From positions 1-20,325 of the IMG/VR virus record IMGVR_UViG_3300027782_000456: DNA of 20,325 bases; one strand, given 5' to 3'. Under the pieces are notes generated by a model that was not told where the DNA came from, ran no database searches, and saw only the letters and a program-made list of their open reading frames with translations. A program made the position numbers and the translations under genes. Within the stretch, counting starts at the first letter, position 1. Every line of letters starts with the position of its first letter. Positions 7,496-19,047 of this stretch are shown here, piece by piece. Source of the stretch: a virus.

Positions 7496-8068
7496 TTGGC
7501 AAATCCGTTTCAGAGACTTCGCGCCCGAGCAGGTGATGGACAAAAGTCCATGGATTGGTACATGCGAAATGTAAAAAACCTCGTGGGCGCGAGGTTGTCT
7601 CAGAGCAGCGTAATGAAATCTGATATTGGTGAATTAAACTCCAATATCGAGATTGGTTCGATGTATATGTATTTCTATGATCCAAAGTTGAAAGAAGAAC
7701 TTCCTTTCTATGACACCTTTCCGTTGGTACTACCATTTGGTCCAGCAAAAGGTGGATTCTATGGAATCAATTTACATTACCTGCCTTACCTGCTACGAGC
7801 ACAGGTTCTTGGTGAGTTATTAGACTATAAAACAACCAAGACATATTCTGAAACAACCAAGTTGCGTATGTCATACAATCTATTAAACAACTTGAAGAAT
7901 GCGAATGAAGTCAAACCATGTATCAAACATTATCTGACCAATCATGTTAACTCGCGATTCTTAAAAGTCAATCCTGAGGATTGGCAAGCAGCAATATTCT
8001 TACCAATCGAGAACTTTGTGGGCGCCACGAAAGAACAAGTATTCAGAGATTCTAGGAGCAAATTCTAA
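7496..8068 (+). CDS. Conserved T4-like virion-associated protein, possible gp2-like DNA end protector
   Basis: A 190-aa protein starting at TTG immediately after the previous stop; AAGGTAGG just upstream supports this start, and the first ATG lies 18 codons in, inside the conserved SMDWYMRN segment. Conserved-looking blocks are IGSMYMYFYDPKLKEELPFY, TFPLVLPF, GGFYGINLHYLPYLLRAQVL, LRMSYNLLNNL, KPCIKHYLTNHVNSRFLKV and WQAAIFLPIENFVGAT. This pattern recurs in T4-like phages. Gene order in T4 (3-2-4-53) makes gp2, which protects packaged DNA ends from RecBCD, a reasonable candidate, but I cannot confirm homology by eye. The stop overlaps the next start (TAATG). Confidence 0.55.
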   Translation: MANPFQRLRARAGDGQKSMDWYMRNVKNLVGARLSQSSVMKSDIGELNSNIEIGSMYMYFYDPKLKEELPFYDTFPLVLPFGPAKGGFYGINLHYLPYLLRAQVLGELLDYKTTKTYSETTKLRMSYNLLNNLKNANEVKPCIKHYLTNHVNSRFLKVNPEDWQAAIFLPIENFVGATKEQVFRDSRSKF

Positions 8069-8670
8069 TGGCGAGACCAACATATCATAACATCAATGAT
8101 TTTTTATCTCAAATTAGAAAAACTGATTTTGCGAGATCAAGTCGTTTTGAAGCATTGTTTTTACCGCCTCCGTTTATGCGCGAGCATAGAACAAGTCAAG
8201 GACCATCACCAAAATTAATTTCTATGATGGTCGAAGATGCAATGTTCCCAGGACTGTTGGTTGGAACTAGACCATTTAGAATAAACAACCTAAATGAACA
8301 ACGTGCAAATGCTATTGATTTTGGCGGGGATTCTATTTCGTTCACGTTTTTGTGCGATACCTCTTGGACGGCAAAAGATTTCTTCGGAGACTGGATGCGT
8401 AAAATTATTAATCCATACACGAGATATGTAAATTATCCATCTGAGTATTATTCAGAAATTGATTTGGTATCTCTAAACAATGAAGACAAAGTTATCGCTC
8501 ATTGGAGAATCTATGATGCATTTCCTAGATCTCTCGCACCAATAACTGTTTCTTCAACCAATTCGGAAGTTTTGAGACTACCCGTATCTTTCGCATATAA
8601 GAGATGGGAAGTCATAAGTGCATATACGCCAGAAGGCAAAGAATATAGCAATTTGAATGAAATAAATTAA
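8068..8670 (+). CDS. Tail tube-fold protein, probably gp54-like tube initiator
   Basis: A 200-aa protein. It contains DFARSSRFEALFLPP, then a central SISFTFLCDTSWTAKDFFGDW (WTAKDFF parallels the ...ARQKFVDW... of T4 gp19), IINPYTRYVNYPSEYYSEI and a final LPVSFAYKRWEVI (T4 gp19 ends VTLALDYWE). This is the general pattern of the tail tube / tube-initiator fold shared by gp19 and gp54. The bona fide tube gene normally sits with gp18 and gp20, which are not here, while tail-chaperone and tape-measure-type genes follow directly, so gp54 is the better guess. ATG overlaps the previous stop by 1 nt. It could instead be a second tube protein. Confidence 0.6.
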   Translation: MARPTYHNINDFLSQIRKTDFARSSRFEALFLPPPFMREHRTSQGPSPKLISMMVEDAMFPGLLVGTRPFRINNLNEQRANAIDFGGDSISFTFLCDTSWTAKDFFGDWMRKIINPYTRYVNYPSEYYSEIDLVSLNNEDKVIAHWRIYDAFPRSLAPITVSSTNSEVLRLPVSFAYKRWEVISAYTPEGKEYSNLNEIN

Positions 8671-8685
8671 TTTTTGGAGTAAATT

Positions 8686-9372
8686 ATGGCATTACCTATA
8701 TTATCAGTACCAACATTTGATGTTGATGTGTTTTCGACGAAACAAAAAGTAACGATGAGACCATTTCTGGTCAAAGAAGAGAAAATTCTTATCCTCGCAG
8801 CAGAGTCTGAACAAAGATCAGATATGGTCAGAGCGATGCAACAAGTTGTATTTTCCTGTTCGGACGGTAAACTTGATGCCGAGCAATTACCATTCTTCGA
8901 TTTACAAAATATTTTTATCAGATTGAGATCGCAGTCTATTGGAAAAGATTCGGAGTTCAATCTAATTTGCGGAGAGTGTGGTCACAAGACTGCAACTACA
9001 CTTGATCTCGATAATATACAACTACGAACAAATCCATCTCACAGTAATAAGATTATGATCGATAGTGACATTGGTGTCGTGATGAAGTATCCTACTGCAG
9101 AAATATTATCAAATGAGGATATGCCAATGTTTGATTTGGTGGTTTCATGTATCGATAAGATCTTCACGAAGGAAGAAGTTCACAATGCTTCGGAAGAGGG
9201 ATACGATGAAGTTGCGAAGTTTATCGATGGATTAACAAACGATCAGTTCGAAAAGATTGTTGAATTTTTCTTGACATCCCCTAAGATTTTCCACAATATT
9301 GATTATGTTTGTTCAAAATGTGAAACCGAAAACAGTGTAGTTGTGGATGGTGTTGAAAATTTTTTCGGATAA
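8686..9372 (+). CDS. T4 gp26/gp51-family tail protein (zero-frame product)
   Basis: A 228-aa protein beginning after TTGGAG. The N-terminal block VTMRPFLVKEEKILILAAES with a following LPFFDLQNIFIRLRSQSIG is the signature I associate with the T4 base plate family that holds gp26 and gp51. Residues around 95-101 (CGECGH) and near the C-terminus (CSKCETEN) form a zinc-ribbon-like set of CxxC pairs. The gene lies between a tube-type gene and the tape-measure-type gene, which is the position of tail assembly chaperones (lambda G/T) in other tailed phages. It ends at 9370-9372 just after a run of A and T that fits a -1 frameshift site (see the frameshift product). Role: tail or hub assembly chaperone. 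Confidence 0.78.
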   Translation: MALPILSVPTFDVDVFSTKQKVTMRPFLVKEEKILILAAESEQRSDMVRAMQQVVFSCSDGKLDAEQLPFFDLQNIFIRLRSQSIGKDSEFNLICGECGHKTATTLDLDNIQLRTNPSHSNKIMIDSDIGVVMKYPTAEILSNEDMPMFDLVVSCIDKIFTKEEVHNASEEGYDEVAKFIDGLTNDQFEKIVEFFLTSPKIFHNIDYVCSKCETENSVVVDGVENFFG

Positions 9373-9539
9373 CCCTTTCTCATGATAACTTGATGAATTT
9401 CTATAAAGTTAATTTTATTTTGATGCACGAGCATAAATATAGTTTAACTGAGTTAGAAAATATGATACCGTGGGAGAGGGAAGTCTATATTGGGATGTTG
9501 CTAACACATCTCAAAAAGAAAGCAGAGAATCAGGACTAA
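8686..9539 (+). CDS. Predicted -1 frameshift product of the gp26/gp51-family gene (G/GT-like tail chaperone)
   Basis: If ribosomes slip back one base at 9357-9366, translation continues from 9366 to the TAA at 9537-9539, giving join(8686..9366,9366..9539), 284 aa. The 57-residue extension has no good start of its own. It includes YSLTELENMIPWEREVYIGM and LLTHLKKKAEN, a compact acidic/aromatic motif followed by a basic tail, as in many phage tail chaperone extensions. Its stop overlaps the next ATG by 1 nt (TAATG), the usual coupling to a tape-measure gene. The frame and heptamer are read directly from the sequence; actual slippage is inferred by analogy with lambda gpG/gpGT. Confidence 0.65.
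9357..9366 (+). promoter_or_regulatory. Slippery sequence for -1 ribosomal frameshifting
   Basis: The zero-frame codons GAA AAT TTT TTC GGA TAA contain two overlapping X-XXY-YYZ heptamers: A-AAT-TTT (9357-9363) and T-TTT-TTC (9360-9366). Both allow full re-pairing in the -1 frame, and the zero-frame stop is 1 codon downstream. I did not identify a convincing stimulatory stem downstream. Confidence 0.65.
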
Positions 9540-11842
9540 TGAACGAATTAGACGAAAAAACTGGACCAATAAATGAAAAAGGAACTGCTGGTTCAGGAGT
9601 CGGTCAAGGGCGCACAATCGCTCAATCTGGTTCTACACCAAAAAAAGGCATTGGTAAGGAAGAACAACTTGCTAAGATTTCTGCTGCAGTAAACACAGCA
9701 TCAACTTCCGAAGCAAATGCTTCTGCTACACAATCTATGATTGCATCATTCAGTAAAAGTTTTAATACTGTTGCTCTTGAAATTGTTGGTAAAATAGACG
9801 ATGATCAAAGAGAGTTGATCAAAACAATGGTCGAGGAAATTACAAAACTCCAGACCAAAAACATGAGCGAATTTGAAAAAGCAATCGGTAAAATCACTGG
9901 TATTGCGAAGAAAATGATGGATTCGAACGATCCTAATTTGCAGGCACTTGGTTCTACTATGCAGGATCAAGCGAAAGAAGAATTGTTCAAGGCAAAGGGT
10001 ATTACTCTTACTGGTGAGAAAGATACATTCTTAAACAGAATGGGAAGAGAAGCTGGACTTGATACCGATAAAGAACCTGTTAAGAAAACCGCACGAGGTA
10101 TCGCAAAGGTCGCCAAAGGATTTATATCTAGTAGCGCATCTGGATTTGCTTCAGGACTTAAAGAAAGTTTCAGACCTGAAGGTGGGATGCTTGATAGAGT
10201 ATTAACCACCGACGAAGATAAACGCCAACGCGAATTGGCGAAACTGCAAGAAAACGAAAATGAATCGGGTACTGAATCTCTTGCAGACATGTTCAAAAAA
10301 GTTATTGAAGAAATATTAGATCAAGGTAAACAAGATAATTCAACAACTGGTAATAAAAAAGAAAAACAGCAGTTTCAACCTATTGATAAATTGACTGATT
10401 TAACAGAAGATCAAATTAAAACTCTAGAAGAACAAGGAATTGCTCCTGCTTCCGAAAAAGACATATCATACAGAAAAGACGGTAAACCAGTCAGCAAAGA
10501 TGAAATCAATCAGACCTTAGCAGCATCAAGCGAAAAGCAAGAAGATACTGCAGGAATTTCAGCAGATAATTCTCTAGCAGGAATGGCAGCAGTTGGTGCT
10601 GCTTTAGTTGCTCTACAATCCAATTCAGATGATTCGCTTGAGATATCAAAAAAACTTCTAGAGAAAATGGAATTTCTTGCATCTTGGTTTGAAACAAACG
10701 GGGCAAGTTTAGGTGGCGGCGGCGGTGGTGGAGGCGGTATACTTGATACTGCTGCGCAAGTTGCTGGTGGCGCATTGGGCGGTGGTTTGGGAATGGGAGC
10801 ATTAGCAACTGGTGCTGCCGTAACAGCAGGTGTCGCTGGTGTTGCATATGGTGCATATAAAGGATACACTGGATACCAGGATGCGAAACAACAAGAAGGT
10901 GCAGCAAATAAAGATATCGACGAGAAAGTTTCTCGGGGAGAACTTACACAGGCACAAGGATTAGATCAAAAAGATAAAACTAAAAAAACTGCTAGAGTGG
11001 AAAAATCCAAAGCAGTCGGCGAAGGTGCGGGTATCGCAGCAGGTGCTGCTGGTGGCGCTCTATTGGGCGCAACATATGGTTCTGCTCTTGGACCGATTGG
11101 TACAGCAGTCGGTGGAGTTGGCGGCGCTCTTGTCGGCGGTTTCCTCGGCGGTGGCGGTGGAAAATATTTGGGTGAAAAGGCCGGACAACTTAGCAACTGG
11201 TGGAAAGGCGATAGCGATAAAGCAGCAGCGATTGATGAAAAGGTCAAAAAGGGTGAGATAAGCAAAGCAGAAGGCGATAAACTCAAAAAACAACTAAAAC
11301 CTTCTGGGGGAGACAAGGTAAAGGGTGCCGCAAAAGGCGCTGCGATGGGTTCTTTTTTGGGTCCAGTTGGTGCGGTTGCTGGTGCAGCATATGGATTCTT
11401 CAATCAAGATGAAGCAAAAGCAGAAGCACCTGTTAAACCAAAGGCAAAAGCGACAGTAGAAAAATCAAAAGAAACAGTTAAACCTAAAGCAGTAGAAACT
11501 GTTAAGAAAGCAACCGAACCAAAGAAAAAGGAAGTAGCACCGTCTTTAGATGCAGGTAAGGTCGAGAGTAAAGGTAATCAAACGGGCGAACAAATTTCAC
11601 CAAAGAAGAAAACTGGTAAAACCGAAACAGGAAAGAACGTTGACGGTGCATTGGTTGAAGCAGGAACTGCTGCGACAAAGGAAAAAATGCAAGTGAATGT
11701 TCCACCGCCAACAGTGATTAATCAAGGCGGAGGTGGCGGGGATAAATCTGGTCCAAGTATGACGCCACAAGGAGGCGTAGGAGCAGTACGATCAGACGAT
11801 CCTACTTGGTTACAATATCAACGTAAACGAGTTGCGGTTTAA
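9539..11842 (+). CDS. Tape-measure-type tail protein with glycine-zipper membrane segments
   Basis: A 767-aa protein from the ATG at 9539 (AGGA 5 nt upstream, overlapping the frameshift product's stop). A GTG at 9470 in the same frame would lie inside the chaperone extension and is not preferred. The N-terminal half is charged and helical. A poly-Gly run (about residues 392-400) leads to three Gly/Ala-rich hydrophobic stretches: AQVAGGALGGGLGMGALATG, GIAAGAAGGALLGATYGSAL and KGAAKGAAMGSFLGPVGAVA. The last ~170 residues are Lys/Thr/Pro/Gly-rich and end DPTWLQYQRKRVAV. A motif IDEKVxxGELxxAxG occurs twice, each before a Gly/Ala segment. Length, position after a frameshifting chaperone, and membrane-like segments fit a tape measure or T4 gp29-like hub protein; at ~1.5 Å per residue the tail would be ~115 nm. 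Sequence similarity to gp29 itself is not evident. Confidence 0.62.
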   Translation: MNELDEKTGPINEKGTAGSGVGQGRTIAQSGSTPKKGIGKEEQLAKISAAVNTASTSEANASATQSMIASFSKSFNTVALEIVGKIDDDQRELIKTMVEEITKLQTKNMSEFEKAIGKITGIAKKMMDSNDPNLQALGSTMQDQAKEELFKAKGITLTGEKDTFLNRMGREAGLDTDKEPVKKTARGIAKVAKGFISSSASGFASGLKESFRPEGGMLDRVLTTDEDKRQRELAKLQENENESGTESLADMFKKVIEEILDQGKQDNSTTGNKKEKQQFQPIDKLTDLTEDQIKTLEEQGIAPASEKDISYRKDGKPVSKDEINQTLAASSEKQEDTAGISADNSLAGMAAVGAALVALQSNSDDSLEISKKLLEKMEFLASWFETNGASLGGGGGGGGGILDTAAQVAGGALGGGLGMGALATGAAVTAGVAGVAYGAYKGYTGYQDAKQQEGAANKDIDEKVSRGELTQAQGLDQKDKTKKTARVEKSKAVGEGAGIAAGAAGGALLGATYGSALGPIGTAVGGVGGALVGGFLGGGGGKYLGEKAGQLSNWWKGDSDKAAAIDEKVKKGEISKAEGDKLKKQLKPSGGDKVKGAAKGAAMGSFLGPVGAVAGAAYGFFNQDEAKAEAPVKPKAKATVEKSKETVKPKAVETVKKATEPKKKEVAPSLDAGKVESKGNQTGEQISPKKKTGKTETGKNVDGALVEAGTAATKEKMQVNVPPPTVINQGGGGGDKSGPSMTPQGGVGAVRSDDPTWLQYQRKRVAV

Positions 11843-14627: not shown

Positions 14628-14835
14628 GAACCGCAGCAAGACTCGGTTCAACCGTTTAATCGAACGGTTGATAGTTTTATTCTGTTTCGAGGAAAAACTA
14701 TCAAAAACCCAATGCTAGCTTAAGCAGCTAGAGCAAAGGCAACGTTATCGTTTGCATTTACAGTTTGTGGCGCTTTGCCAGTCAATCAGTCTCGGTATTC
14801 CTATTACACGAAAATCGAATTCCAAGGTCACCCCC
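14628..14835 (-). ncRNA. ssrA: tmRNA coding piece (tag ANDNVAFALAA)
   Basis: It begins at G 14835 with the 5' acceptor strand, then a D-loop-like GACCTTGGAATTCGA. The resume codon GCA is at 14755-14753 and the stop TAA at 14722-14720. A hairpin CTAGC-TGCTTAA-GCTAG straddles the stop, as in the usual tmRNA helix 5. An 11-bp perfect stem (14694-14704 with 14668-14678) and two further stems follow. The 3' end is not fixed by sequence alone; it lies before the terminator at 14560-14606. Confidence 0.82.
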
Positions 14836-14900
14836 ATCAACTATCAAGTGCCGAATTACATACGCAATTCCCGTGCCAAGCAAACTAAACACTTGATAGA
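14836..14900 (-). other. Intervening segment of the permuted tmRNA precursor
   Basis: Ten-base arms CTATCAAGTG (14899-14890) and CACTTGATAG (14850-14841) pair perfectly next to the acceptor stem, with an inner GAATT/AATTC hairpin (14853-14870). The fold continues the acceptor stem and would hold the two halves together until RNase cleavage removes it. Confidence 0.75.
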
Positions 14901-14962
14901 TGGTGGAGGTGGAGGGAGTCGAACCCTCGTCTTTCCGCTTTTATTGTCAACTGTCAACAACT
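14901..14962 (-). ncRNA. ssrA: tmRNA acceptor piece
   Basis: Contains the T-arm (GAGGG-TTCGACT-CCCTC), the 3' acceptor strand CACCTCC, discriminator A and CCA. The 5' boundary is set only by the predicted transcription start near 14962-14964. The GCGGAAAG segment before the T-arm may pair with TTTTC of the coding piece as helix 2; this is a weak inference. Confidence 0.8.
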
Positions 14963-14969
14963 GATATAT

Positions 14970-15000
14970 TATTTATACTATACATAACGTAGAAAGTCAA
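14970..15000 (-). promoter_or_regulatory. Overlapping sigma70-like and late promoters for the tmRNA gene
   Basis: On the minus strand TTGACT (15000-14995), a 17-nt spacer and TATAAA (14977-14972) form a near-consensus host-type promoter. The -10 is also the start of an exact late box TATAAATA (14977-14970). Both would start transcription near 14962-14966, just before the acceptor piece. Confidence 0.7.
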
Positions 15001-15005
15001 GTGTT

Positions 15006-17619: not shown

Positions 17620-19047
17620 TTAAAATACTTCCACATTATAGATGTTTTGAAACATTGCCGCATCTTTTTCATCATTTACCATTGGAAAACCTTTGACGTT
17701 TAAACTGGTGTTGAGTAACATGGGACAACCTGTTTCTTCATACCATCTTGTCAGCAATTCAAACAATCCTGGATGCTGCTGCTCATTTACAGTTTGGACG
17801 CGAGATGTGCCATCAACGTGAATGATAGCAGGGAACTTTGTAGGAAATTTACATCTTGCAGTAAACTGCATGTAAGGGGATACTTCAACTGGCATGTCAA
17901 AATATTCTGCTGCATGTTGCTCAAGGATGACTGGTGCGAATGGTCTAAACTTTTGTCTGCGTTTGATTGCATTTACTCTGTCCTTAATATCTGGTCTGGT
18001 AGGATCGGCGAGGAGACTTCGGTTACCAAATGCCCTCGGACCAAACTCTGCCTTTCCACTAGCAACTCCAACTATACCCTCTTTAAGCAAAGAAGTCAAT
18101 AGTTTTTCTACAGGATATTCAGTATTAATATTCTCGCCGAGATATGGACCTTGCCAGTTTAGTTTTCTACGGTTGTTTGCAGCAATAGCACCAAGAGAAC
18201 TACCAGCGTCTCCTGGATTCGGAATGATCCAAACATTTTTGAAATATTTCAATGCGATATGATTCGCAGAGCAATTAAGTGCGCAACCCCCTGATAATAC
18301 TAGATTATTTTGAAAAGGATCTCGTATCTTTGCGCGAACGAGTAGTTTATCGAATTCTTCTTCATAAATCTTCTGCGCAGAAGCAGCAAGATCGTAGTGA
18401 TCAGGATCTTCGTTTTTCAACCACCACTTACAACCACGATGCAAATTAGTTCGCTCATATAGTTCGCGCATGTCCCAGTAGTGCTTATTGGGATTACCAT
18501 ACGCTGCCATGCCCATGAGGATATACTCATCTTCGTTTGGTTTCAATCCAACTCTGTCTGTTATAGCGGAATAAAATAACCCAAGCGATTTCGGATAATC
18601 CATACTCCACTTCTTCTTCATCTTATCGCCATCACACAACCATATAGATGCTGTGTCAAATTCACCGATAGCATCAATTACTAATGCAGTTGCAGATTCA
18701 AACTTAGAAGTGTAAAAACCTGCTGCAGCATGTGACTCGTGGTGAGATGCAAATTCAACAGGAACTTGGAGTCCAAATTCATCTTCTAGATAACGCCGAA
18801 CACTAAAACGAACTAGTCCTTGCCCCGTAAGTAATCTACGCATTGCTCGCAGTTTTGGTTTCTCATACCAGTGGATTTTTCCTGGTTTACCGAACTTCAG
18901 TGCTGCGTTGATCAGATCGTCATTTAGATGCTTGTCATTTTTGATTCCACTGTATCGCTCTGCATGAGAGGCAAAGAGTATCTCCGCGCCAGTAACAACA
19001 GTTAATGCAGCATCATGCGCCCCTGCAGATATTCCCCATTCAATCAT
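17620..19047 (-). CDS. Carbamoyltransferase, NodU/CmcH/TobZ family
   Basis: A 475-aa protein with both family domains. The N-terminal ASKHA/Kae1-like domain has ISAGAHDAALTVV (6-18), the metal-binding SHHESHAAAGF (101-111), VIDAIGEFDTASIW (123-136), LMGMAAYG (177-184), LVLSGGCALNCSANH (249-263) and NPGDAGSSLGAI (277-288). The C-terminal YrdC-like domain has GKAEFGPRAFGNRSLLADP (331-349), RRQKFRPFAPVIL (363-375) and a final LNTSLNVKGFPMV. These enzymes build carbamoyl-AMP from carbamoyl phosphate and ATP and pass the carbamoyl group to a hydroxyl. In phages a related enzyme has been reported to carbamoylate 5-hydroxymethylcytosine in DNA; whether that applies here is unknown. The ATG overlaps the 34-aa ORF stop by 8 nt (ATGATTGA). 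Confidence 0.93.
   Translation of the reverse strand: MIEWGISAGAHDAALTVVTGAEILFASHAERYSGIKNDKHLNDDLINAALKFGKPGKIHWYEKPKLRAMRRLLTGQGLVRFSVRRYLEDEFGLQVPVEFASHHESHAAAGFYTSKFESATALVIDAIGEFDTASIWLCDGDKMKKKWSMDYPKSLGLFYSAITDRVGLKPNEDEYILMGMAAYGNPNKHYWDMRELYERTNLHRGCKWWLKNEDPDHYDLAASAQKIYEEEFDKLLVRAKIRDPFQNNLVLSGGCALNCSANHIALKYFKNVWIIPNPGDAGSSLGAIAANNRRKLNWQGPYLGENINTEYPVEKLLTSLLKEGIVGVASGKAEFGPRAFGNRSLLADPTRPDIKDRVNAIKRRQKFRPFAPVILEQHAAEYFDMPVEVSPYMQFTARCKFPTKFPAIIHVDGTSRVQTVNEQQHPGLFELLTRWYEETGCPMLLNTSLNVKGFPMVNDEKDAAMFQNIYNVEVF

Follow-up and report, generated by a model that had tools for sequence, protein, structure and literature searches.

A gene of the T4 gp26/gp51 family in a 20,325-nucleotide fragment of DNA from a T4-like marine phage (IMG/VR virus record IMGVR_UViG_3300027782_000456, positions 1 to 20,325; the window, below) ends in a slippery heptamer followed by an open -1 frame, and both elements recur in all 80 relatives found in IMG/VR. 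Given this conservation, we conclude that the site and its extension are not a product of chance. We read the locus as a tail assembly chaperone (TAC) pair of the lambda G/GT type, with a probability of about 0.92. The initial annotation of this DNA had proposed such a pair, and the proposal is supported by conservation, by homology to T4 gp51 and by the predicted fold. The elements of the locus are:

8686..9372, + strand: short form, a gp26-like protein of 228 aa, proposed TAC-N (lambda gpG analogue)
9357..9363, + strand: overlapping heptamer A_AAT_TTT, not generally conserved
9360..9366, + strand: slippery heptamer T_TTT_TTC, the conserved one
9366..9539, + strand: -1 frame extension of 57 codons and a stop, corresponding to the gp51 C-terminal domain

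In the proposed mechanism most ribosomes would stop at the TAA at 9370 and release the 228-aa short form (gp26). A minority would slip by -1 on T_TTT_TTC, as both tRNAs re-pair on TTT TTT, and would continue into a predicted fusion product of about 284 aa with the gp51-type domain at its C-terminus. If the lambda model applies (reviewed in PMC5009743, citing Levin 1993 and Xu 2004, 2013 and 2014), the short form would coat the putative tape-measure protein from the next gene, the tail of the long form would recruit tube subunits to the tape measure, and both forms would be absent from the virion.

Conservation of the slippery site and its extension

The zero frame of the gp26-like gene ends as GAA (9355) AAT TTT TTC GGA TAA (9370-9372). 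The two overlapping heptamers reported in the initial annotation are present as in-frame X_XXY_YYZ motifs, and the single codon GGA separates T_TTT_TTC from the zero-frame stop. In the -1 frame, a TGA at 9354 is followed by an open stretch from 9357 to the TAA at 9537-9539, so that the 57 codons previously reported, counted here from slip to stop, and the end at 9539 hold. The extension reads RITLSHDNLMNFYKVNF...LENMIPWEREVYIGM...ENQD, and its stop shares bases with the ATG of the next gene (TAATG).

The window by itself is only suggestive. It is AT-rich, and when the same residues were recoded synonymously with local codon usage, at least one heptamer appeared in 62% of the recodings and two appeared in 33%. 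The long open frame is less common: 0.5% of shuffles keep a -1 frame of this length open. Because heptamers alone are expected in most recodings, the case rests on comparison.

The IMG/VR relatives share 33-77% identity, and clustering at 90% identity left 60 non-redundant genes, the window's own among them. All 80 relatives have T_TTT_TT[C/T/A] 7-31 nt ahead of the zero-frame stop together with a homologous -1 frame extension. Without exception, the 60 non-redundant genes use TTT for the first Phe of the site, while other Phe codons in the same genes are TTT in 78% and TTC in 22% of cases. The codon preceding the site ends in T in 60/60, and of 13,668 other codon sites just 10 show T_TTT_TTN. 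The A-site codon is variable in its third base, with C in 49 genes, T in 9 and A in 2. Since A_AAT_TTT is present in just 8/60 genes, the second heptamer is the conserved element, and the earlier description of two slippery heptamers is corrected to this extent.

The arrangement also occurs in named phages, among them the cyanophages and pelagiphages in which the initial annotation had suggested looking for it. Of 21 non-T4-type named phage records examined, 18 have T_TTT_TT[C/T/G] and a -1 extension: S-PM2, P-SSM2, P-HM2, S-WAM1, MC09, S-CRM01, HTVC008M, Mosig, Melnitz-3, KVP40, CC2, Ah1, Mendera, RHph_N34, P10VF, phiM7, SRB7757 and ORM_20. These include cyanophages, pelagiphages, a methylophage, rhizobiophages, KVP40, and phages of Aeromonas, Stenotrophomonas and Nitratidesulfovibrio. 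S-PM2, P-SSM2 and KVP40 resemble the window in heptamer, -1 extension and gene order, but their gp26 is only about 24-38% identical and the two parts are annotated as separate genes, with gp51 called truncated. None of the records examined annotates the joined gene, whose halves usually appear under separate "baseplate hub" names; some give a small gp51 with a downstream start and others omit it.

The -1 frame is under coding constraint from just past the zero-frame stop, ahead of the usual first start codon. Across the 60 genes, the entropy at -1 codons 6-11 is 0.87, 0.57 and 1.61 bits by codon position, which is a coding pattern. Most relatives reach their first possible start, of whatever kind, at -1 codons 11-22, and their first ATG is typically at codon 21-22; relatives L046 and L081 have no ATG, GTG or TTG before codon 58. 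The window agrees with the earlier statement that the extension lacks a good start of its own: the earliest candidates are a TTG at codon 11 and an ATG at codon 12 from the slip, neither with a Shine-Dalgarno match longer than 3 nt. More generally, Shine-Dalgarno matches span 0-4 nt at extension starts versus mostly 5-7 nt at gp26 starts.

A Shine-Dalgarno-like sequence upstream of the slip is a suggestive candidate stimulator. In the relatives its energy is -5.3 kcal/mol versus -4.35 in synonymous recodings, with 0/200 recodings as low. Among 66 positions, the windows next to the slip give the most extreme values, yet |z| of about 4 is reached at others too. The dnaX site is a known example of -1 frameshifting stimulated in this way.

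Protein families, predicted fold and neighbouring genes

In profile searches the zero-frame product matches PF12322 (1.2e-53, 182.5 bits against a cut-off of 24.5) over residues 10-227 of 228, and phrog_150 (3.4e-59). The extension matches phrog_634, the baseplate hub assembly catalyst gp51, at 4.4e-24 over residues 2-59. It also has a separate match to the final 50 positions of phrog_150; T4-type gp51 matches that family along its entire length. Two CxxC pairs (CGEC and CSKC, at residues about 94-97 and 209-212) occur in the gp26-like protein. They suggest a zinc ribbon or zinc-binding part in this chaperone family, for which zinc-ribbon profile matches are weak.

An AlphaFold model of the gp26-like protein has a pLDDT of 90.4. 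Its best two PDB matches are HK97 gp13 (2ob9, Z 6.7, 84 aligned) and YqbN (3klu, Z 6.2, 85 aligned), both of them phage tail assembly chaperones (PMC9603447). These matches cover model residues 1-90, where the next match confined to the same region has Z 2.6. They came from re-alignment of Foldseek candidates; on its own, Foldseek returned no PDB hit for this model at E<0.001, and a search of the gp26 profile against the sequences of solved structures returned noise only. The model of a T4-type gp51 (L086) had no chaperone among its candidates, which is not evidence against the assignment. The predicted structure supports, without proving, a TAC fold for the N-terminal domain.

The gene lies between a tube gene and a long gene:

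8068..8670, + strand: upstream tail-tube-family protein, gp54/gp19-like
9539..11842, + strand: long downstream gene, 767 aa, at the tape-measure position

The tube-family identity of the upstream product is clear from phrog_45 (tail tube, 5.4e-30), with a weak match to PF06841. The 9539-11842 product has no convincing family match in profile searches and no strong hydrophobic segments, and its detectable similarity is limited to close relatives; in pelagiphage HTVC008M a gene near the equivalent position is annotated as putative tail tape measure. Like lambda G/GT, the proposed chaperone locus of the window sits between a tube-protein gene and the tape-measure position. It differs from lambda in its heptamer (T_TTT_TTN) and in its protein, a PF12322 member that carries additional C-terminal parts and two CxxC pairs, and its slippage is predicted.

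Elsewhere in the window, a permuted (two-piece type) alphaproteobacterial tmRNA with the tag ANDNVAFALAA lies on the - strand at 14629-15004 (Rfam tmRNA_permuted, 91 bits; alpha_tmRNA, 60 bits) and suggests an alphaproteobacterial host. A 475-aa open reading frame on the - strand at 17620-19047 looks carbamoyltransferase-like by eye.

Alternative explanations

Alternatively, gp51 might be a small gene in its own right, with translation of the extension beginning at a start of its own or resuming by termination-reinitiation once gp26 is finished. It is annotated as its own gene in several deposited records, and in KVP40, Mendera, RHph_N34 and P10VF (L084, L099, L101, L116) the gp26 stop overlaps an ATG in the frame of the extension, as TAATG or TGATG; in these four phages both slippage and re-initiation could take place. 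Under independent initiation, the stretch from the slip to the first start would be free to vary. Because it is constrained, we conclude that the extension is very probably not a separate gene, and the late starts with their short Shine-Dalgarno matches argue the same way. The initial annotation had named an extension encoded as its own gene behind a strong ribosome binding site as the observation that would count against it; what we find is constraint that precedes the usual start and two relatives that are startless up to codon 58. An independent gene would also leave the retention of the slippery site in 60/60 genes unexplained, and we consider this explanation very unlikely. Transcriptional slippage, in which RNA polymerase rather than the ribosome slips on the T run, is more improbable still. 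It would fit the homopolymer of at least 6 T at the site in all relatives, but most of these runs are merely 6-7 T, and the usual sites of transcriptional slippage are longer. What is conserved is a tandem slippery heptamer in phase with the codons, which is what re-pairing of tRNAs would lead one to expect, with the caveat that the encoded Phe-Phe fixes the phase as well.

A different reading concerns function: gp26 would be a structural hub subunit and gp51 a hub-assembly catalyst, so that frameshifting would make a hub protein with a variant tail. T4 genetics places gp26 in the hub (reviewed in PMC3004832), but that review also counts both proteins among the hub assembly chaperones and reports that the final particle lacks gp51. 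The N-terminal fold best matches solved TACs, the gene sits between the tube gene and the long gene, and, according to citing papers, TAC genes of T4-like phages have already been identified in the literature. We therefore regard a hub role as improbable.

Several observations weigh against the chaperone pair made by frameshifting. In S-SCSM1 (L109, 2484-2680) the heptamer is kept and the extension lies in the +1 frame relative to gp26, either by a natural indel or by a sequencing error. Vi01 (L104, near 2741) and Vibrio D494 (L103, near 2672) have a -1 extension without a canonical heptamer; their genes end in ATT TTC ATT TAA and CTT TTC AAG TAA, respectively, and a different slip site may be used. 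The window's own Shine-Dalgarno-like element is weak (GGATGG only). We make no claim for downstream RNA structure, which has z -0.1 in the window and a mean z of -1.4 in the relatives (19/60 below -2), values obtained without control positions. The Z scores of the chaperone matches are modest, and the putative tape-measure identity of the 9539-11842 product rests mainly on position and length. Finally, what was computed here covers the site and how widely it is kept, the coding constraint on the -1 frame, homology with T4 gp51 and the predicted chaperone-like fold, whereas we infer slippage with its efficiency and ratio, the fusion product and the binding partners.

Probable frameshifting and gene duplication in T4-like phages

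In T4, gp26 and gp51 are encoded on opposite strands and are paralogues (2e-6). Alignment shows gp51 to be a gp26-like protein followed by the extension. Thus both the short protein and the C-terminal extension of T4 are homologous to those of the window, but T4 has two separate paralogous genes without slippery codons where the window has a single gene with a -1 overlap. A T4-type long form that is separate and yet a complete gp26 paralogue plus extension fits the chaperone pair. Only one gp26-like gene is present in the window's 20-kb record, which is itself a fragment. In RB43 (L110, 2501-3794) a gp51-like gene is followed by an apparent short gp26-like gene on the same strand, an order unlike that of T4.

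The C-terminus of T4-type gp26 is still GLKEFF or a variant of it, with the codons TTC TTT, TTC ATT, TTA TTT or TTT ATT. From these codons, the terminal Phe residues appear largely retained and the slippery site gone. The short and long genes of the T4 type cluster together in an unrooted tree, away from all frameshift-type genes (99/98), and KVP40, CC2 and Ah1 fall on the frameshift side. A single switch between the two modes would suffice for this pattern; the tree, in which two long branches meet, does not give its direction.

We tentatively suggest, at somewhat less than even odds, that T4-like phages have two solutions to one ratio problem. In marine, rhizobial, vibrio and several Aeromonas lineages, a -1 frameshift would be aided by a Shine-Dalgarno-like stimulator that lies inside the gene, upstream of T_TTT_TTN. 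In the T4-type lineage, a duplication giving rise to gp26 and gp51 would have taken the place of frameshifting, with decay of the slippery codons. We did not find the stimulator part of this proposal in the literature consulted.

Other parts have precedents. Papers that cite Vladimirov et al. 2022 credit it with identifying the TAC genes in T4-like phages. The PRFect authors cite that work for T4-like phages with separate short and long genes instead of frameshifting, and the paper on Pseudomonas phage Adele (PMC12846349) cites it for polyT slippery sequences in T4-like TAC-N genes. The TAC locus of Adele (Vandenendeviridae/Andersonviridae) has, as in the window, a polyT motif at the end of TAC-N and a conserved open -1 frame; it differs in the phage families concerned and in the motif, GTTTTT. 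This kind of locus has thus been published, and the polyT site probably as well; the idea of a chaperone pair is not new. What is added here is the taxonomic breadth, the codon-level tests, the contrast with T4 codons and the gap in annotation.

An earlier comparison described marine vibriophage and cyanophage gp51 as short by about 200 N-terminal residues. If the extension is made by frameshifting, as we propose, these residues would be missing for that reason, and duplication in place of frameshifting, if true, would account for the "truncated" cyanophage gp51. The annotation of the gp26/gp51 locus of marine T4-like phages should become one gene with a -1 frameshift product, in place of a hub subunit and a tiny catalyst with a guessed start. 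The two types of locus then lend themselves naturally to a comparison of frameshifting with gene duplication as means of setting the chaperone ratio.
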